Shown piece after piece: positions 4,118-20,976 of a DNA stretch of 36,839 bases (position 1 is the stretch's first letter; each line of letters begins with the position of its first letter). Under the pieces are notes generated by a model that did no database searches, was not told the DNA's origin, and saw only the letters and a list, made by a program, of their open reading frames with translations. Source of the stretch: Actinomycetota bacterium (lineage in GTDB: Bacteria > Actinomycetota > Acidimicrobiia > IMCC26256 > PALSA-610); contig PLBO01000059.1 in NCBI GenBank assembly GCA_003134555.1, positions 1 to 36,839 of the forward strand, written 5' to 3'. The translations under genes were made by a program, and so were the position numbers.

Positions 4118-5403
4118 CGCCGCGGCCTTCCGGGCTCGACCTCCGACGCGAATCGTTGGCGCGTGCTCGGGCCGCCGATCGCGGCGCGCTCGCTGCGCAG
4201 GCGCGGCTGCGCGTCTTCGGCGTGCCGGTCGCCGGGCCGCGGGGGCAGCGCGAAGCCCGTGTAGGCAACGCGCCGCTCGCGGCTCGCGGGGTGGGTCGAC
4301 CGGTGCAGCGCGCACGACATGTGAACGGTGAGGTCGCCGCGATCGGCTCGGAGCGTGACCCGCGGAAGATCGAGTCCCCCGTCGACCTGGGCGCGCGCGA
4401 TGTTCGCCCGGTGCGAGCCGGCGACGACGTCGAGCCCGCCGTGCGCCTCGTCGACCGGCGTCAAGCAGATGCCGACGGTGAGGCCCGAGCAGAACATCGA
4501 GTGACCGCCGCGTTCACAGTCCTTGTGCCAGGGCAAGCAGACCAGCCCTTCGACCGAGCCCACGCGCTTCACCAGCCCCTCCGCGGTGACGTCGGCGAAA
4601 TGCTCTCCGAACGGATCGCCCGGGCGATGACCGTCGCCGAGCAGCTCGCCGATGGCGAGGAAGCGAGGATCGGCGAGCAGGGCGCGCAGCGACTCCGACT
4701 TGCGGGCGAACTCGAGGATGCGACACGGGTAGCGCTCACCGGTCCGCGTCGCCGCCCACCACGATTCGCCATCGTCGGGACGCGCCGCGTCGACGGCAAG
4801 GGCGAGCTCGGCGTCGACCGCGTCCATCTCCTCGTCGGTAAACACGTTCTGCACGAGGAGGAAGCCGGCAACGGCGAGGAAGTGCGACGCCTCGGCGGGA
4901 TGATCGCCGAGCCGGAACCGCTGGTCGAGGTCGAGGGGCGAGCCGTCGAGCGCGCGCATCATCACGTCGCCCGGCCGGTACACGCCGCGTGCGTCGAGCG
5001 CGGAGCGGAGCACGGGATCCCACGCGCAGAACGCCTCGTTCGACTCGGGATCTCCGTTTACTCGCGCGCCGATCACGAGACCGAGCGCGGTTCGCTTCTC
5101 GTGGACAAGGTCGGCGAACGCGTCGCGGTCGAGCGAGACCTGCAGCGTCGCCGCCTCGCGGCCAGGGACGGCCTCGAGGGTTTGTTCACCGCGGCGGAGG
5201 GTCCACGCGTCGCCGTCGATCACGATCGCGAGCGGCGGCAGATCGAGGCGCTCCGCATCGGCGGCGGCGCGCGCGCCGTTGCGCGCGAGCGCGTCGCGCC
5301 ACTCGCCGTCCCAGAAGGCCGCGGGATCGACGGGAGACGACGCGCCGACCGGACGCGTGCGGGTGTCGACGCTCGGCCGCGCGACGTCGTCGCTACTGTT
5401 CAC
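4114..5403 (-). CDS. SCP2-like domain fused to PhyH-family Fe(II)/2-oxoglutarate dioxygenase
   Basis: A 429-residue protein starting at GTG 5403, which overlaps the upstream TGA (GTGA). Residues about 165-390 are a phytanoyl-CoA dioxygenase (PhyH) domain: the iron ligands are H293 and D295 in PWHKDCE, the distal His is probably H367 in CALHRST, and an Arg near 378 (RRVAYTGF) would bind 2-oxoglutarate. The roughly 135 N-terminal residues resemble a sterol carrier protein 2 fold: VIDGDAWTLRRG, then a TLQVSLDRDAFADL helix, then a GARVNGDPE turn. PhyH enzymes hydroxylate acyl-CoAs and other small molecules; an added lipid-binding domain would suggest a hydrophobic substrate. The PhyH assignment is firm; the SCP2 assignment is from pattern only. 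It is the second gene of the operon, between HIBDH-like and SDR genes. Confidence 0.82.
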   Translation of the reverse strand: MNSSDDVARPSVDTRTRPVGASSPVDPAAFWDGEWRDALARNGARAAADAERLDLPPLAIVIDGDAWTLRRGEQTLEAVPGREAATLQVSLDRDAFADLVHEKRTALGLVIGARVNGDPESNEAFCAWDPVLRSALDARGVYRPGDVMMRALDGSPLDLDQRFRLGDHPAEASHFLAVAGFLLVQNVFTDEEMDAVDAELALAVDAARPDDGESWWAATRTGERYPCRILEFARKSESLRALLADPRFLAIGELLGDGHRPGDPFGEHFADVTAEGLVKRVGSVEGLVCLPWHKDCERGGHSMFCSGLTVGICLTPVDEAHGGLDVVAGSHRANIARAQVDGGLDLPRVTLRADRGDLTVHMSCALHRSTHPASRERRVAYTGFALPPRPGDRHAEDAQPRLRSERAAIGGPSTRQRFASEVEPGRPRR

Positions 5404-10765: not shown

Positions 10766-11052
10766 GGGCAACCTTCCGTACGTCGACACCCGCACGCTAA
10801 CGCCGCGCGAACAAGACTGCACGGGCGCCTCGCTACCGCCGACCGCCACCCGGATGTCGTTGATCGTCAGCGCCCACAGCAGCGGCCCGATGGGAAAACA
10901 CGGATCGCATCTCGATGACGCGCTGGCCCCACGCTATGAACTGACCGCAGAGAGTGATCGAGAAATTTAGGGACTCCAGTCTGCTCATTGCTGCGCCGAG
11001 ATACCTCAAGGGAGCTACCTGGGCTTGACGTCCAGAATTGGGAGGTCGTTTG

Positions 11053-12051
11053 TTGGGCACGACTGCGCGGGTACGCGGGCGGTGGCGTGTGGCGCTGCTA
11101 TCGCTCGTGACTTTGTTCGGGGGTTTGTCGGTCGTTATGGCGCCTTCGGCGCAGGCTGCCGCGTTGACGAACGTCAACTGGTCGGTGTCCAACAACCAGG
11201 CGACCGCCACGGCGGTGAACTACAGCTTTTCGTTCCGGGCGGCGACGACGGGCACGATCAAGACGATCACCTTCGTGGTCTCGGGTGCAGGTTTGGCCGG
11301 CGCGCCGGCGATCGTGCGGAACTTCGGTATCCCCGCGGGAACTGTTGCGCGTGTGGGTCAGACGATTACTTATACCGTGACGGCTGCAGCGAGCGTGGCG
11401 GCGAACATTCCGATTTACGTCGAGTTCTCCGGGCTGACGAACCCGGCCGCCGGCTCGTACACCACGTCGATCACGACGCAGACCGCTGCGCCGGCCACGA
11501 TCGACGGCCCGACCGCATCGAATGCGGTCACCATGGCGGCGTCCAACACTGCGATCTCGGTCGCGGTCGCGAAGAGCTTGACGTTCACGATCGACACCAC
11601 GACGTTCGAGCTGGATATGGACCCGAGCCTCCCCGCCCTTGCTGATCAGAGCCAGAACGTCGGTCTTACCGTTCTGACCAACGCAAACTCGGGATACACG
11701 CTGACGGTGAGCGATCAGGCCGCCGGTTTGCAGAGTGCCGCGTCGGGCAACCCTACGATCCCGAAAGTGTCGAGCGGGAAGGCGACGTCGGTCGTCTTCC
11801 CGGCTGCACCTGCTTTTGCTTGGGGTTACAACGCGACCGCGACCGGCGCAACGGCCGACGCGGCGTTCTCGGGCTCGAAGTACGCCGGCTACGTGAGTGG
11901 AGCTGGTGAACAGGTCGCAAGTCACGCGGCTTCGACCGGCGTGACCGCGGACACGATCACCATCTCGAATCGAGTCGCGATCGACTACGCGACACCCGCG
12001 TCGGTGTTCACCGACACGGTCACCTATACCGTGACTCCGAACTACAACTGA
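11053..12051 (+). CDS. Secreted beta-rich surface protein (WxL-like)
   Basis: A 332-residue exported protein. GGAGGT (11041-11046) gives a 6-nt spacer to TTG 11053, favoured over TTG 11050 or 11038. The N-terminus has a basic head (ARVRGRWR), a hydrophobic core and an AQA-A cleavage site. The mature part is Thr/Ala/Ser-rich with no cysteine. Residues about 35-160 form one beta domain; the rest starts with SLTFTIDTTTFELDMDP, includes SGYTLTVSDQAAGL, and ends in DTVTYTVTPNYN. This C-terminal layout resembles the secreted wall-binding proteins of WxL systems, although two canonical WxL motifs are not visible. The next gene, 2 nt away, encodes a membrane-anchored partner. The function is probably cell-surface structure or adhesion (inference). 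Confidence 0.8.
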   Translation: MGTTARVRGRWRVALLSLVTLFGGLSVVMAPSAQAAALTNVNWSVSNNQATATAVNYSFSFRAATTGTIKTITFVVSGAGLAGAPAIVRNFGIPAGTVARVGQTITYTVTAAASVAANIPIYVEFSGLTNPAAGSYTTSITTQTAAPATIDGPTASNAVTMAASNTAISVAVAKSLTFTIDTTTFELDMDPSLPALADQSQNVGLTVLTNANSGYTLTVSDQAAGLQSAASGNPTIPKVSSGKATSVVFPAAPAFAWGYNATATGATADAAFSGSKYAGYVSGAGEQVASHAASTGVTADTITISNRVAIDYATPASVFTDTVTYTVTPNYN

Positions 12052-12053
12052 TC

Positions 12054-13124
12054 GTGCGGGATCTCGCTGACGGGACAAGCCACCGCTGGTTAGTCTTTGT
12101 TGCAGCAGCCGCCGGCCTCACGGGTATGTTTCCTGCGGTTGACGCGCTCGCGGCGACGGTGTCGCCCGTAGCGGCGAAGGTGTCGCGCTCCATCGCGGTC
12201 TCTGTCCCGAGCGTGCCGACAGAGGTCCGCCCCGGCGAGACTTCGAAGATCCGCGTGCGAGTCGTCAACCCTGGGAGCCCGTCCGTCACGGTGACGGTTA
12301 CCGGCCGAGGTCTCGAATTTGGCGATGACGGCAAAGTCAACGTGACTGCCGCGCCCGACCCCCAGTGGGCGGGCCGAATCGACTTTCCAGCCAGAGACAT
12401 CACGGTGCCGGCCGGAAGCTTCGACGACGTGTTCCTCACCGTACGCATGCCCATGCACATCGCCCCGGACTTGTACTTCATCGGTTTCGTCGTCAGCCCC
12501 GTACCGAGCGCCCTCGGCAAGGTCGTCCTCATCAACCAGATCGGCGCCTTCGTCACTATCGACGTGCCCGGCCCTCGCGACCGCACCCTCTCCGCGCAGT
12601 TGCACGTGCCCGGCTTCCGCCTCGGTCCCATCCAACTTTCGAGCGTAACTGTTGGAAGCCAAACCGCCGGCGAGGTCCGGGTGCACAACGTCGGCACCGC
12701 ACAGGTGCAGTTCTGGGGTTGGAACGAGACCCGAGCATCGTTCGGCCGCGGCGCGCACCAGCAACGCATAGACAAGCTGTTGCTTCCGACCGGGCGGGCA
12801 CGCTCGTTCGCGATTACTGGCAAACCGGCATGGCCGATCGACTTCGTCGCCATGAAGGTCTACCTCATCTATCCCGACAAGACCGAGACCGCAACAAAAC
12901 AGATCGTCCTCACGAAGCGCGTGCTCGTAGTCAACCCCTGGGTGCTCGTCGCTATCGGCGCGCTCACCGTGCTCGCCGCCTCGTGGCTGCGACGGCGCCA
13001 CAAACGCAACAAGATTGCCCGCGGACCATCCTCCTCGGTCGCGCACGGGCGACGAGCGATCAGGTCACAAACGGCCGGACCTACAGACCAGCGCCGATCA
13101 GTTGTCGTCGCCGCCGGCCGATGA
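12054..13124 (+). CDS. Membrane-anchored surface protein, DUF916/WxL-interacting-like architecture
   Basis: 356 residues from GTG 12054, only 2 nt after the previous stop and without its own SD, so probably translated by coupling. The N-terminal signal peptide ends near ALA-A (residues 31-34). Two or three immunoglobulin-like beta domains follow (about 45-175 and 180-290), including RPGETSKIRVRVVNPG, typical of the first strands of DUF916-like domains. One transmembrane helix at about 291-311 is followed by a very basic tail (WLRRRHKRNK). Signal peptide, beta domains, single TM and basic tail together match WxL-interacting proteins of Firmicutes, which are encoded beside WxL proteins. The match here is by architecture and gene order, not residue-level homology. 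Confidence 0.75.
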   Translation: MRDLADGTSHRWLVFVAAAAGLTGMFPAVDALAATVSPVAAKVSRSIAVSVPSVPTEVRPGETSKIRVRVVNPGSPSVTVTVTGRGLEFGDDGKVNVTAAPDPQWAGRIDFPARDITVPAGSFDDVFLTVRMPMHIAPDLYFIGFVVSPVPSALGKVVLINQIGAFVTIDVPGPRDRTLSAQLHVPGFRLGPIQLSSVTVGSQTAGEVRVHNVGTAQVQFWGWNETRASFGRGAHQQRIDKLLLPTGRARSFAITGKPAWPIDFVAMKVYLIYPDKTETATKQIVLTKRVLVVNPWVLVAIGALTVLAASWLRRRHKRNKIARGPSSSVAHGRRAIRSQTAGPTDQRRSVVVAAGR

Positions 13125-13371: not shown

Positions 13372-14523
13372 TCAGTGGAGGAAGAGGCGGATCTCTGTCG
13401 TGGTGAGGACGATGTCGTGTTCGGCGCAGGCTGCTTCGACTTCGTGGTTGCGGGTGGATCCGCCGGGATCCGCGACGTAGCGGACTCCGTGGCGTGCGGC
13501 CTGGTCGATGTTGTCGCGGAACGGGATGTACCCGTCGGATGCGAGCGCGACGTCGTCGAGAAGGCCTCGCCAACCTCGCTTTTCGTCCAGTTGCAGCGCG
13601 GGCGCGTCGTCGCTGAGCGCGGATCGGAAGCGTTCGAGCTCGCGTTGGTCCATGTCGCCCTCGATGTAGCGGATCTGCCAGTTGATGCGTTCTTGGCGTC
13701 GGATCGCGTCGATGAACGGCAGTGCCCGCACCTTGGGGTGCCGGCGGAGCCACCATGTGTCGACCTTCGCGCCGGCGAGCTTGGTGCAGTCGACGCGGGA
13801 CTGCTGTCCGGCGCCGATGCCGAGGACCATCCCGGCCCGCGCGTACGTCACGGTGTTCGACTGGGTGTGGCGGGCGGCCACCATCGCAAGCATCAGATCC
13901 GAAACCGCCGAGTCCAGAAGTGGCCTCGTCGTTCCCGATCGCACGATCGACGCAGTGATCTCGGTCGTCGGTCGCTGTTGTTCCAGGCGAACTCCACCGA
14001 GTTCTCTGCTCTCCCATGGCGGAGGTTCGAACGCGGCGTCCACCTCCAGCACGAGGTATTGGCCGTTCTTCTTGGCGGCGAGCGTCTCGACGGTTCCGGG
14101 TGCGTATCCGGGTGCGATGATCCCGTTGGACACGACGCCACGCAGCACTTGCGCGAGTGAGTGGTCGACTGGCTCGGAGACCGCAACGATGTCGCCGAAC
14201 GACGACTTCGGGTCGCAGTCTCGAGCTCGAATGTATGCAGTCGCGATGTCAGACAGGTCGACGCCATCCGGGAACCAGGTGTCACGCATCACTTCATCGA
14301 TGCCGCCGGCAGTCGCAACCCCAGCGGGTGAGACATGCTTGAAGGTCGTCGCCACCGGAACTGAAAGAACCGCGGCAGCCTCCCGGACCAGCGCCCAGGC
14401 GCCCAGCGCGTCGAGAACGTTGATGAACGACGGGTGCCCCGCGATCAGCCGCACCGGAGCTCCTGCATCACCGACCGTGGCGCGAGCCAACTGGTCAGGG
14501 TTCGAGCCGTATCGCAGGTCCAC
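13372..14523 (-). CDS. Stand-alone AICAR transformylase (C-terminal half of PurH)
   Basis: 383 residues equivalent to the AICAR formyltransferase domain of bifunctional PurH; the IMP cyclohydrolase half is missing. It transfers the formyl group of 10-formyl-THF to AICAR, the penultimate step of purine synthesis. Visible family motifs are RYGSNPDQ (4-11, bifunctional: RYGENPHQ), FKHVSPAG with the catalytic Lys-His at 62-63, a SDGYIPFRDNID motif, and ADPGGSTRN near the end. GTG 14523 is preceded by AGGAGG (14528-14533) with a 4-nt spacer. A ZTP riboswitch sits directly upstream; ZTP accumulates when 10-formyl-THF is short, so control of this enzyme is logical. Either cyclohydrolase is supplied by another gene or the cell also has a full PurH. 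Confidence 0.9.
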   Translation of the reverse strand: MDLRYGSNPDQLARATVGDAGAPVRLIAGHPSFINVLDALGAWALVREAAAVLSVPVATTFKHVSPAGVATAGGIDEVMRDTWFPDGVDLSDIATAYIRARDCDPKSSFGDIVAVSEPVDHSLAQVLRGVVSNGIIAPGYAPGTVETLAAKKNGQYLVLEVDAAFEPPPWESRELGGVRLEQQRPTTEITASIVRSGTTRPLLDSAVSDLMLAMVAARHTQSNTVTYARAGMVLGIGAGQQSRVDCTKLAGAKVDTWWLRRHPKVRALPFIDAIRRQERINWQIRYIEGDMDQRELERFRSALSDDAPALQLDEKRGWRGLLDDVALASDGYIPFRDNIDQAARHGVRYVADPGGSTRNHEVEAACAEHDIVLTTTEIRLFLH

Positions 14524-14526
14524 TGG

Positions 14527-14551
14527 TCCTCCTCGATCAAATCGATGAGGA
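14527..14551 (-). promoter_or_regulatory. SD-sequestering hairpin (riboswitch expression platform)
   Basis: In the mRNA TCCTC (14551-14547) can pair with GAGGA of the SD (14531-14527), and ATCG with CGAT, separated by a 2x2 internal loop with a 3-nt loop at the tip. It lies between the aptamer and the GTG start. Such a stem would block ribosome binding, implying translational control. This is inference from base pairing. Confidence 0.6.
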
Positions 14552-14616
14552 CCCAGGCGGACGGCCCCGTTTCTCAGCTCCCTGGTGGTACTCCACCTTC
14601 GCCAGTCGCTTCCCCG
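14549..14616 (-). promoter_or_regulatory. ZTP (pfl) riboswitch aptamer
   Basis: On the minus strand the sequence holds the conserved pfl elements in order: CGACTGGCG (14608-14600), a GGTGG-AGTA-CCACC hairpin (14597-14584), the CAGGGAGC segment just after it, a variable loop, then CCGTCCGCCTGGG (14564-14552), the pseudoknot strand that is nearly invariant in this class. ZTP riboswitches sense ZMP/ZTP and activate folate and purine genes, most often purH, glyA and folD. The gene directly downstream is the AICAR transformylase, which fits. Confidence 0.93.
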
Positions 14617-14805
14617 ATCCTACGGCTGCATCAACGACAACAGCAGAGGTTGCCGCGCTCGATTAGGGCGGTCCCAAGTGCACACTCGAAGCCTGAGCGG
14701 CTGTCGCATCCCGATGGTGATCGGAGAATTCCGACGTTGCGCCCAACCGATCGGGGGGCTGGGGGCTGTTTCCTTGCACGATGATCGATCGCGACTGGAC
14801 GGCGG

Positions 14806-15297
14806 ATGAGCAGACCGAGGGCCGACGAGGACCGGGCTGCGGTCGAGCAGATCTTCCGCGAGCAGTACGCGCGGATCGTCGTCGTGTTGGGGGCGCAGCT
14901 CCGCGACGCTGGTGCAGCCGAGGAGTGCGCGCAAGAAGCCTTCCTGGAGATGGTCCGCCGTTGGACCAAGCTGCGGCACTACGACGACCCGACCGCGTGG
15001 CTCTGGCTGGTCGCGTTGCGCAAGGCGTCGAGATGGCGGAAGCGCAACGCGCGTTCGATTACCGGCATGCCGGTTCCGGCCGCGCCGCCGGAGCTCGAGG
15101 TACTGATCGATCTGCACGATGCGGTTCGGGGACTTCCCGATCGCCAGCGCGAAGTAGTGATGCTGCACTACTTCACCGACCTTTCCGTCGGCGCGATCGC
15201 GCTCGAACTCGGGATCTCCGAGGGAACGGTCAAGTCGCAGCTGCACGACGCGCGGCACGCATTGCGGAGGACGCAAGATGAACGACCGGCCATCTGA
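14806..15297 (+). CDS. ECF-family RNA polymerase sigma factor
   Basis: 163 residues containing sigma region 2 (FREQYARIVVVLGAQLRD, then GAAEECAQEAFLEMVRRW, with the DPTAWLWLVALRKA segment that binds the -10 element) and region 4 (LPDRQREVVMLHYFTDLS with the helix-turn-helix IALELGISEGTVKSQL). The linker is short, as in ECF factors. ATG 14806 has only a weak SD. Its last 20 nt overlap the following gene for a membrane ectodomain protein, the usual sigma/anti-sigma layout. It is one of five such pairs in the window. Confidence 0.9.
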   Translation: MSRPRADEDRAAVEQIFREQYARIVVVLGAQLRDAGAAEECAQEAFLEMVRRWTKLRHYDDPTAWLWLVALRKASRWRKRNARSITGMPVPAAPPELEVLIDLHDAVRGLPDRQREVVMLHYFTDLSVGAIALELGISEGTVKSQLHDARHALRRTQDERPAI

Positions 15298-16741
15298 CGA
15301 GCGCGACCGCGCCCACGAGAGCGTCCGCGCCCTTGCATCGCGGGTCGAAACGGCGGCGGCCTGGACGACGATCTCCGCCGCGATCGACCGCGCACCACAC
15401 GCGCGGCTCCGCCGCCGTGGGCTCAGCGCCGCGGTCGTTGTCGCTGCGCTGGCGATCGGCGGCGCACTCGTCGCAACACTCACGTCGGGCGGTCGGGGTT
15501 CATCAGTCGCGGTGTCGCCGTCGACAGCTCCGGCGCTCGCCGATTGCGCGCTCCCGGCGCTGCCGCAACCGGGGGCCGGCACAACCCCGAACGATCTCGC
15601 AGGTCCGGCCGTGAACGCGTTGAAGGGCGGAGCTGTACTCGCGCCGTTCTCGCTCGACGGCGGCAAGTTCTCGGTGTCGCCGCCGCTCACCGGCGCCGCG
15701 CCCGTCGTGACCGCGCGACAGGCCGAATGCGCCGCGCTGGCGTCCATCGACCCGAGCGGCTCCCGCTCGCCGCTCGGCCTCGCTATGGAGTACGGCGGTG
15801 CTGCCGTCGGCTACGGGCAGGTGACGATCGCGCCGGAGTTGATCGCCAATCCGGCGCCGAACCTCATGGGCCAGACGAACCAGAACACGAAACCGTCCAT
15901 GCCTCTCCCGACGCCGTACCAGGATCGGCCGGCGTGGTTGGTCGTCGTGAAGAACGTGTTGATCTTCAACGGTCGGTTCAACGGTCCATCGCAAGGCGTG
16001 TCGATCCCCAAAGCTGGACCGGAGCAGTACGGCTACCTCGTATTCGTTGTCGACGCCCAGACCGGATCTGACGCCTTGATGTACGCGGAGAGTCAGCCGG
16101 GACCGGGCGCAATGATCGCCGCGTACGTCAGTGTGCCCGTCGAGCAGATCTCGGTTCCGTGGACGCTGGTTTCGCGATCGCCGAACGGCTACGCCGGAAC
16201 GATCGACGCAACCGTCCTCCCGTGTGACGGATATCCGAATCCGGTGTCGGTCGACGCGACGCGCGCCGCGGTCGGCGTTGTCGTGCAACGGCCCGTCGGC
16301 GCGTCGTGTGGCGCACCCGTCCAGGTCACCTTGCCGTTGGTCGCCGCGACCGTCACGTCCGATCTGCCTGCCGAGATCGCGCACGACCCGCTCGGTCCGG
16401 CGATCACGTCCGACTCGGGTGAGCGAACGCCCGGAGATCCATCCCGCGTGCTCCGGCTTCTCAAGGAGACCGACAACGGCAGCACGATCCACATGACCGC
16501 CGGCAGCGTCGTAGTGCTTCCGCATCTCAACGGCGCGAACCCCGACGTGTCGAGTGGCACGTCGAGCGACCCGATCGTCGTCGGCGGCCTCGACGGCTCC
16601 GCGCACAACGCGGTCGGCGAGTTTCGTGCATGGCACGCCGGCCGCGCGGATCTCACGATTCCGACCAGCGGGTGCGCCTACCCCAAGAGCAATGCGCTGC
16701 CGTGTGCGGGCTCGTGGACCGTGCACGTCATCGTCGACTGA
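15278..16741 (+). CDS. Single-pass membrane protein, putative anti-sigma factor with large ectodomain
   Basis: 487 residues from ATG 15278, preceded by GGAGG (15266-15270) inside the sigma gene. The cytoplasmic N-terminus (1-48) is short and basic; one TM helix spans about 49-68; the remaining 420 residues are outside. The ectodomain has several cysteines (for example ECAAL, CDGYP, SCGAPVQV, and CAYPKSNALPCAG near the end) that may form disulfides. There is no HxxxCxxC zinc anti-sigma motif. The gene overlaps its ECF sigma by 20 nt, so regulation of that sigma is the likely role (inference from gene order). I do not recognise the ectodomain family. Confidence 0.75.
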   Translation: MNDRPSDERDRAHESVRALASRVETAAAWTTISAAIDRAPHARLRRRGLSAAVVVAALAIGGALVATLTSGGRGSSVAVSPSTAPALADCALPALPQPGAGTTPNDLAGPAVNALKGGAVLAPFSLDGGKFSVSPPLTGAAPVVTARQAECAALASIDPSGSRSPLGLAMEYGGAAVGYGQVTIAPELIANPAPNLMGQTNQNTKPSMPLPTPYQDRPAWLVVVKNVLIFNGRFNGPSQGVSIPKAGPEQYGYLVFVVDAQTGSDALMYAESQPGPGAMIAAYVSVPVEQISVPWTLVSRSPNGYAGTIDATVLPCDGYPNPVSVDATRAAVGVVVQRPVGASCGAPVQVTLPLVAATVTSDLPAEIAHDPLGPAITSDSGERTPGDPSRVLRLLKETDNGSTIHMTAGSVVVLPHLNGANPDVSSGTSSDPIVVGGLDGSAHNAVGEFRAWHAGRADLTIPTSGCAYPKSNALPCAGSWTVHVIVD

Positions 16742-16767
16742 AGCGTCGTGATGTGCGTCGGTCGGGT

Positions 16768-17913
16768 TTACCAGGCAACCTGGTAGGCATCGTTGAGGAG
16801 TCGGACAGGGGTGCCGTTCCGGAGGGTGTAGACCTCGGAGGGTTGGTTTGCTTCGTAGCTCAGTATGTAGATGAGGTGTCGTCCGGATGGGTCGATCGCG
16901 AGGTCGATGATGCCGAAGACCGCACCGCTTGCGACGGGGACTGTCTTGTTGATCGCGCCGGTCGTAGCGTTGTAGCTGACGAGTTGCGCTGACCGCCCGA
17001 TGCAGTTTTCGGCGCTGACGATGAGGTTGGTTCCGGGTTGGAACCGCGGAACCCAGAGTGTGCATGCGGCGTCGGGGCTTCGGAGTTGGACTCCGTCTGT
17101 GAGTGTGGTTCCGCGGTTGATGTCGAGCACCCAGGCTGTCGTGGTGCGTCCCGCGTTGAGCTCGTAGCTCAGGTGCGATGAGTCTGGTGACCATTCGAGC
17201 TGCGTGATGGTCTCGCCGCGGCCGTTCGGGTTCGTCGGTTGGATCCAATGTCGCTCACGACCGGTCGTCGCGTCGCGGACGACGAGGCGAGGTTGAAGGC
17301 ATCCGTTAGTACCGGTGGCCTGAAGGTAGGCGACCTTCTTGCGGTCCGGGCTTTCGACGACATCTGCCGGGTGGTTGAGATCTTGAAACGCCGGTTTTGA
17401 TGCGCCGGTCGCGACGTTGATCGCGGTCCATGTGTGTCCGCAGCCCGCATTCGCGACGGGGTCGTAGATCGTTCTGAGGTCGCTGCTGAACCGCACCAGT
17501 GCTTGGCTTGCGGATGTCAGAAATGGGCCGTGCGTGCCCGTTGCGGTATCGACGAGCGCGACGCGCTCGCTTCCCGCGCCGATCGAGGCGAAGAAATGCG
17601 TGGGTTCCGGCGCGGAGCGGTTCACGGTTGGGGCTGTGGACAGAGGAAACGTCACGCCTGTCGGCCGTGTGGTCGTGGGAGCGGCGGTTGGCTTGTCCGT
17701 CGTGTGCACGGTCGGACTCACCGAGACCGTCGGCTCGTGCCGCGTCGATCGAAGCACAACAAGGCTGAGGGCTCCGATCGCGGCGAGCGCAACGAGACCG
17801 ATTGTCCACACTCGAAGGCGGCGTCGGCGGGCGCGATGACGAAAGTGTTCGACCGGCGGCGGTGGCGGTGCGGCCGCGAGATCGCGACTGACGGCATCCT
17901 CGAATCGCGTCAT
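16768..17913 (-). CDS. Single-pass membrane protein with beta-propeller-like ectodomain, putative anti-sigma factor
   Basis: 381 residues. ATG 17913 overlaps the TGA of the upstream ECF sigma gene (ATGA). The cytoplasmic part (1-34) has a Pro run and an Arg cluster; one TM helix spans about 35-54; a Thr/Pro-rich stalk follows (about 60-105). The ectodomain reads like a TolB/WD40-type propeller with repeated motifs such as SSDLRTIYDP, ESPDRKKVAYLQ, SPDSSHLSYEL and DPSGRHLIYIL. Propeller ectodomains in such positions are thought to sense an envelope ligand and release the sigma. No zinc-binding anti-sigma motif is present. The sigma partnership is inferred from the overlap. Confidence 0.78.
   Translation of the reverse strand: MTRFEDAVSRDLAAAPPPPPVEHFRHRARRRRLRVWTIGLVALAAIGALSLVVLRSTRHEPTVSVSPTVHTTDKPTAAPTTTRPTGVTFPLSTAPTVNRSAPEPTHFFASIGAGSERVALVDTATGTHGPFLTSASQALVRFSSDLRTIYDPVANAGCGHTWTAINVATGASKPAFQDLNHPADVVESPDRKKVAYLQATGTNGCLQPRLVVRDATTGRERHWIQPTNPNGRGETITQLEWSPDSSHLSYELNAGRTTTAWVLDINRGTTLTDGVQLRSPDAACTLWVPRFQPGTNLIVSAENCIGRSAQLVSYNATTGAINKTVPVASGAVFGIIDLAIDPSGRHLIYILSYEANQPSEVYTLRNGTPVRLLNDAYQVAW
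16769..16785. terminator. Inverted repeat at convergent gene ends
   Basis: TACCAGG-CAA-CCTGGTA is a perfect 7-bp stem overlapping the stop codon of the minus-strand gene that ends at 16768 and lying 27 nt beyond the plus-strand stop at 16741. It may be a bidirectional terminator. There is no T-tract and the stem is short. Confidence 0.4.
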
Positions 17914-18410
17914 GATCGCTCCTCCGCAATCTCGTCGGCGTCCAACGCGATGCCGAGATTGCGCCGCGCCGCGGCGAGCGTCGACGCGACCGTGCCTCGC
18001 GTGATCCCCATCACCGTCGCGATCTCTCGTTCATCGAGATCGGCGACGTAGCGCAACACCACCGCGAGCCGTTGACGAGGCGGCAACGCACGGACAAGTT
18101 CCCAGACCTCTCCGGCCGGAGCAGAAACGTGGGCACGGCTGATCAGCCTGGGCAACAGCCGTTGCTCGACCCGGCGACGACGAAGCCGACTCCGCACCAG
18201 ATTGAGCGCCACCCGATACGTCCAGCCCTCCGGCGACGACATGACTTGAACCGTCTCCCACCGACGCCATGCTCGAGACAACGCCTCGTCAGTCGCGTCC
18301 GACGCGAGATCGCGATCCCCGCAAACTGCGACCATCGCCGTCAACAACCGGGCATATGTGCTTCGGTACCAACTCTCGAAGGACCTATTCGCCGACATGC
18401 CCACACCCAT
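17910..18410 (-). CDS. ECF-family sigma factor
   Basis: 166 residues with region 2 (FESWYRSTYARLLTAMVAVCGD, DLASDATDEALSRAWRRW, SSPEGWTYRVALNLVRSRLRRRR) and region 4 (LPPRQRLAVVLRYVADLDEREIATVMGITRGTVASTLAAARR). Starts are possible at ATG 18410 or ATG 18398; neither has a clear SD. Its TGA overlaps the ATG of the propeller membrane protein, forming a two-gene operon. Confidence 0.9.
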   Translation of the reverse strand: MGVGMSANRSFESWYRSTYARLLTAMVAVCGDRDLASDATDEALSRAWRRWETVQVMSSPEGWTYRVALNLVRSRLRRRRVEQRLLPRLISRAHVSAPAGEVWELVRALPPRQRLAVVLRYVADLDEREIATVMGITRGTVASTLAAARRNLGIALDADEIAEERS

Positions 18411-19061: not shown

Positions 19062-20318
19062 TCAGGTGATACGACAGGGTGACGGCACGTCTGCGATCGC
19101 GAGCCCGGCCGTGGTTGCGATGACGAGATGATTGTCGGCAACGGTGATGGCCGAGCCGTCTGGGACGTTTGCGAGACGTCTCGTCGCGAGAACGGCACCG
19201 GTGTTCACGTCGCCGCACGCGATCGTCGTCGACGGCACGCGGTTGAGTATCCATAGCCGGTTGCCGGCGATGTTGACTGTCGCGCCGTTCGGGCCCACGG
19301 ATTCGTTGGAGTGGTTCCACGTCGCGTCAGTAGCAAGGGTGCGCGCGTCGAGGCGGGTCACGAAGACGAAGTGCCCTCCACTGGCTGCGACCCAGATGCC
19401 GTCGGTGACGGGCAATATGGTTCCGCCCGCGACCGATGGGAGGTCGCGGCGTTGCATCTCCACGGCCCCGGTCAGAGGATCCCGTCGGGTGAGTACGAGG
19501 GGCGAGTACGGCTTCTGGGGGTTCTGGGGGTCGAGGCCAACGTTGGGTTGCGCGACCCAGAGCCATCTTCCGCCGGGGTCGAGTGCCACGTCGGCTAACG
19601 GGGCGGGGTCCTGGCCTTCGATCGGCACGCTTCGCACGATCGTTCCACGATCGGCATCGAGCCGGTACAGATGCGTGTTCGTCGCGGCCCACAACACGGT
19701 GTCGTTGCCGGTGAGGGCCGGTGTCCACTGCTCGGCGAGCGCGACGCGTCGATGGACCTTGAGGGTCGCGGGGTCGAGCTGCACGAGTCCACCTACGTGG
19801 CCGCCGCCCGGCTTGGTCGGCCAGTCACTGATCCACAGCCATGACCCTGCCCGCACCAGCCCGAAGGCACTGTCGAACTGCTCGCTGCGGGCAAGTGTTT
19901 TTCCAGTCGAGGGATCAACCCGGATGACGTTCGACCCCCGGCCACCCCCTGGCGCCACAATCACATCGATCGCACGACCATCGCTCACGACGGCCCTCAC
20001 GTTGCCGATCGGCCACAACCGAGACGACAGCTCGAGCGGCCGCGCAGTCGTCGGCGGTGACACGGTGCTCGTGGTGACGGTGGGTGTCGCGACGGACTGC
20101 GGAATGGGATGGCCGGTGGGCGCCGGTGATTCGAAGTCGGATCTCAACGCGACTGTGACCGCCACCGCGGCGCCCAGCAACACGACGATCGGGATCGCCG
20201 CGACGCGTCGCCGACGCTGACGCAGGCGGTACCCATCTCTGACAGCGTCATCGACGAGACGGTCCGGAACGATGCCACCGCTGTCGTCGAGCGCGTCGCG
20301 TAAGAGGTCTTCGATCAT
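19062..20318 (-). CDS. Single-pass membrane protein with propeller-like ectodomain, putative anti-sigma factor
   Basis: 418 residues; ATG 20318 overlaps the TGA of the ECF gene (ATGA). The cytoplasmic part (1-38) contains MIEDLLRDALDD and an Arg cluster; the TM helix spans about 39-58; a Thr/Pro stalk follows. The ectodomain has PQQ/YVTN-type propeller repeats: SNVIRVDPSTGKTL, VRAGSWLWISDW, LVQLDPATLKVHRRV, ALDPGGRWLWVAQ, TDGIWVAASGGHFVF. It ends in a Cys-containing strand (VPSPCRIT). No zinc motif. Most likely it holds its sigma at the membrane and senses an extracellular signal (inference from layout). Confidence 0.78.
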   Translation of the reverse strand: MIEDLLRDALDDSGGIVPDRLVDDAVRDGYRLRQRRRRVAAIPIVVLLGAAVAVTVALRSDFESPAPTGHPIPQSVATPTVTTSTVSPPTTARPLELSSRLWPIGNVRAVVSDGRAIDVIVAPGGGRGSNVIRVDPSTGKTLARSEQFDSAFGLVRAGSWLWISDWPTKPGGGHVGGLVQLDPATLKVHRRVALAEQWTPALTGNDTVLWAATNTHLYRLDADRGTIVRSVPIEGQDPAPLADVALDPGGRWLWVAQPNVGLDPQNPQKPYSPLVLTRRDPLTGAVEMQRRDLPSVAGGTILPVTDGIWVAASGGHFVFVTRLDARTLATDATWNHSNESVGPNGATVNIAGNRLWILNRVPSTTIACGDVNTGAVLATRRLANVPDGSAITVADNHLVIATTAGLAIADVPSPCRIT

Positions 20319-20830
20319 CCGGCAACCTCCTCAGACGGCATTGCCGCTCGCAACTTGGCCAGACCCTTCGCGGTCTGGCTCTTGACCGTTCCCGTCGAAC
20401 AACCCAACAGCGCGGCGACGTCCGCCTCGGAACGGTCCTCGCAATAGCGCAGCACCACCGCGGCGCGCTGCTTCGGCGGCAGCGTTCGCAGCAAGGCGAC
20501 GAGCACCAGCCGAGCATCGACCCCGCCCTGACGGCCCTCGTTCACGCCTCGATCAGGTACGTCCGCGACCAGCAACTCGCGCCACGGGCGCCGACGGCGC
20601 GAGTTCGACAGCGTGTTGATCATCGCTCGCCGTATGTATGGTTCCGGGTCGTCACGCCGTACGACGCGCGGCCACGCCGCGAAGGTCCGAGCTAACGCAG
20701 TCTGCACCAGGTCCTTGGCGTCCTCGCGGTCGCCGGTCAGCATGAAGCCGAATCGGAGCAACGCGGGCAGCCGGGCGGAACAATACGCTCGGAACTGCTC
20801 CTCGTTTCCCGGCACACCCGTATCAGACAC
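20315..20830 (-). CDS. ECF sigma factor of the SigE-like family
   Basis: 171 residues. Region 2: EEQFRAYCSARLPALLRFGFMLTGD, DAKDLVQTALARTFAAWPRV, DPEPYIRRAMINTLSNSRRRR. Region 4: LPPKQRAAVVLRYCEDRSEADVAALLGCSTGTVKSQTAKGLAKLR. The phrase LRFGFMLTGDxxDAxDLVQ is characteristic of the actinobacterial SigE-type group, which usually recruits a membrane regulator encoded just downstream, as here. GTG 20830 is chosen over TTG 20833; neither has a good SD. Confidence 0.9.
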   Translation of the reverse strand: MSDTGVPGNEEQFRAYCSARLPALLRFGFMLTGDREDAKDLVQTALARTFAAWPRVVRRDDPEPYIRRAMINTLSNSRRRRPWRELLVADVPDRGVNEGRQGGVDARLVLVALLRTLPPKQRAAVVLRYCEDRSEADVAALLGCSTGTVKSQTAKGLAKLRAAMPSEEVAG

Positions 20831-20976
20831 CAAAGGTGTCGATCGGGTTGCCTCGCCGAACTAACAACCGGGAAAGGTTCGCAACTCAACTCGTCTCTCG
20901 ACGTTCGTGGGCGGTCGCCGATCGGGAGCGGGACCACGAGCACCAAGTCGGAGATTCGGCTGCGATCTCTTCGTTC

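Follow-up and report, generated by a model that had tools for sequence, protein, structure and literature searches.

We conclude that the 36,839-nt stretch of actinobacterial DNA analysed here (the window) carries a genuine ZTP riboswitch; upon build-up of ZMP/ZTP it most likely activates translation of a monofunctional enzyme that is the genome's second AICAR transformylase. The riboswitch had been noticed in a first-pass annotation and is confirmed as real and ordinary in kind; the point of interest is that a clade of Actinomycetota attaches it to a second AICAR transformylase of separate lineage.

The Rfam covariance model RF01750 (ZMP-ZTP) matches the minus strand at 14619-14544 with 47.3 bits against a gathering threshold of 39, in an alignment that spans all 86 model positions (E 7.5e-5 over all 4227 Rfam families). 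This is the sole Rfam match at the gathering threshold within the window, and the genome (4.63 Mb, 98% complete) has just one further RF01750 match. The covariance search thus upholds the identity first read from the sequence, and the four pfl elements are all found in order on the minus strand: the CGACTGGCG element (14608-14600), a GGTGG arm (14597-14593) paired with CCACC (14588-14584), the CAGGGAGC element (14584-14577) and the CCGCCTGGG element (14560-14552). The span originally proposed, 14527-14616 with no strand given, covers the aptamer and overruns slightly into the adjoining hairpin. The conserved core of the family, GACUGGCG...GGGAGC and CCGCCUGGG, is present in the window copy together with P2 and P3, both of which are sound (GUGG/CCAC in P2). 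P3 (14548-14568), read from the Rfam structure line and from the longest gapless helix, pairs GGGGCC (14568-14563) with GGUCCU (14553-14548) around the conserved loop CCGCCUG. P1 is weak, with about three inner pairs (AGC/GCU) plus outer U-A and C-G pairs, several others being mismatched or missing. The GTG start of an AICAR formyltransferase gene lies 20 nt downstream of the aptamer, so that a purine/one-carbon target is present. The riboswitch is a further member of the known class; its P1 is weak and its platform likely translational.

The controlled gene (13372-14523, minus) starts with GTG and encodes 383 amino acids, all of which (residues 1-383) align with positions 4-390 of 390 of NF005492, the NCBI model for monofunctional AICAR formyltransferase (phosphoribosylaminoimidazolecarboxamide formyltransferase; PRK07106), at 434.1 bits against a curated cut-off of 415. 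Residues 2-253 match PF01808 at profile positions 78-311; positions 1-77 are absent, leaving the transformylase part with no IMP cyclohydrolase (MGS-like) part, so the earlier reading of the gene as only the transformylase half of PurH stands. In an alignment with 1p4r, K62, H63 and N223 fall on K266, H267 and N431 of human ATIC, known active-site residues of that enzyme. The product is predicted from its sequence to be a monofunctional AICAR transformylase. Among ATIC structures, those of eukaryotic type score far higher against it (312 bits for 7mgq, 302 for human) than bacterial PurH structures (≤95 bits). More generally, when transformylase domains are compared, the bacterial stand-alone enzymes (the window protein and those of loci L039-L047) look far more like the one in eukaryotic-type ATIC than the one in bacterial PurH.

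A full-length PurH is encoded on contig C132 of the same genome, making the window gene a second AICAR transformylase and ruling out the implied replacement of PurH by the stand-alone enzyme. No ZTP riboswitch was found in the 3.9 kb examined around this purH; the second one in the genome lies on contig C19 (56.1 bits), upstream of glyA (serine hydroxymethyltransferase, PF00464).

The transformylase gene is apparently transcribed by itself. On its downstream side the next genes with coding-type composition (12054-13124 and 11038-12051) lie on the plus strand, and its upstream neighbour is a divergent ECF sigma factor gene (14806-15297). The product of 12054-13124 is a 356-aa protein without a Pfam match; contig C105 encodes a paralogue with 47% identity, and the 16 relatives searched have no counterpart. 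The sigma factor gene is one of three of ECF type within 6 kb (the others at 17910-18410 and 20315-20833), each beside a large gene. Together with an adjoining 487-aa protein, likely an anti-sigma factor or sensor, it forms a block (14709-16748) that is 91.5% identical in the congener G001, where its surroundings differ and include a nearby tRNA gene, as though the two genes travelled together; this pair was the only part that aligned in an empty-site comparison with G001. At the window's edge (1-2424, minus), an 808-aa open frame running off the contig end contains repeats of ~50 residues with CWGxNxxGQLGNG motifs and looks like an RCC1-type beta-propeller protein.

The Shine-Dalgarno sequence AGGAGG (14528-14533, minus) stands 4 nt before the GTG start and is covered by a predicted 7+5 bp hairpin (14525-14553), which bears out the first-pass suggestion that a hairpin between aptamer and start can cover it. 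From CUGGG onward this hairpin has an MFE of -18.3 kcal/mol (z -4.28), and none of 200 dinucleotide shuffles was as stable. Its 5' arm holds all six bases of the P3 3' strand, so that P3 and the hairpin are mutually exclusive. Ensemble modelling leaves the Shine-Dalgarno hexamer 19% unpaired when folding is free and 67% unpaired with P3 enforced. Enforcement costs ~11 kcal/mol in the model, and therefore the switch, if working, must be kinetic and decided during transcription, with ligand bound before the hairpin is made.

Since the hairpin both hides the Shine-Dalgarno sequence and shares the bases of P3, the evidence favours a ligand-on translational switch above other mechanisms. Without ligand, AGGAGG, the ribosome-binding site, would be sequestered by pairing between GGUCCUC, which follows CCGCCUGGG, and GAGGACC. 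ZMP/ZTP accumulates when 10-formyl-tetrahydrofolate is short; binding of either would hold P3 in the aptamer and keep the masking hairpin from forming, and the freed ribosome-binding site would allow more transformylase to be made and ZMP to be consumed. The position of the genome's other RF01750 match upstream of glyA/SHMT, a classic ZTP target (Weinberg 2010, PMC2864571), also counts in favour of this scheme. Counting against it are the poorly paired P1, the energy needed to enforce P3, the weak response of several related leaders described below, the long branch of the window protein and a relative (G026) in which no aptamer was found beside the gene. We infer ligand binding, the direction of switching, translational rather than transcriptional control, enzyme activity and a role of the gene as a backup under folate stress.

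Rho-dependent control, which high-GC Actinomycetota could in principle use, counts towards a reading in which a functional aptamer acts on transcription, through premature termination, and not on translation. We consider this improbable. Many known ZTP riboswitches use terminators (Weinberg 2010, PMC2864571), but no terminator-like site was found in 14400-14850, the masking hairpin is followed by AGUGGACC and not by a U run, and it is the ribosome-binding site that is covered. A promoter scan gave no hit.

The pairing of riboswitch and stand-alone enzyme is found well beyond the window. Seven of the 396 genomes of the phylum set have a stand-alone enzyme over the NF005492 cut-off, and all six other than ours have a ZTP aptamer upstream of it, directly in two and with a purO-type gene between in four. 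Among the best 80 relatives from genome_contigs, 20 have the aptamer upstream, and none of the seven actinobacteria in the set (L041-L047; Streptomyces, Nocardia and others) lacks it; non-actinobacterial carriers are Selenomonas, Phascolarctobacterium, Ktedonosporobacter, Blautia and other Clostridia. Recurrence across Actinomycetota, Bacillota and one Chloroflexota genome contradicts the first-pass view of the linkage as less usual and rules out that it is rare; since it occurs in Streptomyces and other bacteria, the pairing is real and sensible, not exotic. What survives of the original interpretation is the aptamer, the gene and the hairpin masking the Shine-Dalgarno sequence, while the substitution for PurH and the unusual linkage do not. 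No relative was found in viral contigs. In one Bacillota MAG (L098) a stand-alone AICARFT gene with a ZTP riboswitch before it is followed, after ~1.1 kb, by a Guanidine-I riboswitch (5288-5392, minus).

In a protein tree, in which the root and the outgroup row of the genome's own PurH were not used and only the grouping among stand-alone enzymes was counted, the window protein and the seven actinobacteria L041-L047 fall in a clade of 11 with support of 100/100. All 11 actinobacterial genomes of this clade have a full PurH. Where relatives have a second ZTP riboswitch, it precedes genes whose translations read GlyA or, once, FolD. Full PurH is more frequent in loci with the riboswitch (9/20) than without it (7/60; Fisher p 0.003). 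A general tie between ZTP control and the combination of PurH with a stand-alone enzyme was rejected, as 2/13 versus 7/60 (p 0.66) are left without the seven actinobacteria, which form one clade.

In ten actinobacterial leaders (the window and L039-L047) 20-48 nt separate the aptamer from the transformylase start codon downstream. Most of them have a stem over the ribosome-binding site, with arms that differ in sequence yet still pair. Within P3, the third pair from the loop alternates between G-C and A-U and the fourth between G-C and C-G. By sequence reading, the P3 5' strand is GGAG in L039, L040, L046 and L047, a Shine-Dalgarno mimic competing for the same CUCC. When P3 is enforced in the model ensembles, the unpaired fraction of the Shine-Dalgarno sequence rises from 0 to 70% in L046 and from 9 to 58% in L039, much as in the window, with smaller shifts in L045 (38 to 57%), L047 (6 to 27%) and L040 (17 to 28%). 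It is barely freed in L041, L042, L043 and L044, and the platform mechanism is therefore not uniform: these four platforms may work differently, or they may escape models that lack the pseudoknot and ligand.

The distribution nearer to the window is patchy. No comparable match was found in 13 other genomes of the same family that were searched, the congener G001 has kept the glyA riboswitch and has no comparable stand-alone gene, and in G026, of the same order, the gene is present and no ZTP riboswitch was detected. The absence from the 13 counts towards a rival reading, in which an acquired gene has a decaying or drifting riboswitch that binds ligand poorly and leaves the enzyme unregulated or always low. 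The weak P1, a bit score below that of most relatives and the position of the window protein on the longest branch of its clade also point that way. However, the aptamer keeps all its conserved core elements along with P2 and P3, both the ribosome-binding site and the active-site residues are intact, and L039 and L040 score lower still (43-45 bits) yet share the layout, making decay, by a narrow margin, even less probable than transcriptional control. A chance match in GC-rich sequence can be dismissed almost entirely, for although the genome is GC-rich and 47 bits is only 8 above the gathering score, the E value is 7.5e-5 over all of Rfam, the strand, place and metabolic gene are all right, and the repetition of the arrangement in nine related leaders speaks strongly against chance.

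Returning to a working riboswitch, we tentatively suggest, at rather less than even confidence, that in many Actinomycetota it may run a small folate-stress regulon. This would comprise glyA (or folD) and a second transformylase of distinct lineage, which would stay silent until ZMP rises and would then drain it when PurH cannot, for example because the affinity of PurH for its folate cofactor is too low. If this is true, the stand-alone enzyme is a specialised, inducible folate-stress isozyme and not a redundant copy. The case is clean and testable, as the riboswitch senses the substrate of its target enzyme, itself a spare version of a housekeeping enzyme. Should the isozyme work at lower folate than PurH, this would reveal a means by which actinobacteria of the soil, Streptomyces among them, withstand folate limitation, and would account for the placing of ZTP sensing on the stand-alone gene, and not on purH, in these genomes. 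Otherwise, the window riboswitch adds one more well-behaved example to a known class.

The genes associated with the pfl motif include purH, glyA and folD (Weinberg 2010, PMC2864571), and among purine-synthesis genes ZTP riboswitches occur predominantly with purH (PMC10912719). A second-copy arrangement was not met in the literature searched, which did not extend to the primary report of Kim et al. 2015. The window riboswitch is like the ZMP/ZTP class (pfl motif, RF01750) in its aptamer core, P2, P3 and purine/one-carbon target, and differs in its weak P1, in a platform that masks the ribosome-binding site with no terminator, and in its target, a monofunctional transformylase that is the second such enzyme of a genome whose full PurH is encoded elsewhere. 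Its enzyme has the K-H and N active-site residues of the transformylase domain of bifunctional PurH/ATIC but is without the N-terminal IMP cyclohydrolase (MGS-like) domain. Several Clostridia and the four other phylum genomes mentioned above (L068, L070, L038 and others) combine an NF005492-like enzyme with the same riboswitch class. In those, the riboswitch is followed first by a gene for a PurO-type IMP cyclohydrolase (PF07826, tested in L068 and L038) and then by that for the transformylase, and no full PurH was found, whereas the window riboswitch immediately precedes the transformylase gene and its genome does have PurH. Strand displacement of P3 is established for the transcriptional ZTP riboswitch of C. 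beijerinckii (PMC10085676); the window switch would follow the same P3-displacing logic, with a hairpin over the ribosome-binding site where C. beijerinckii has a terminator.
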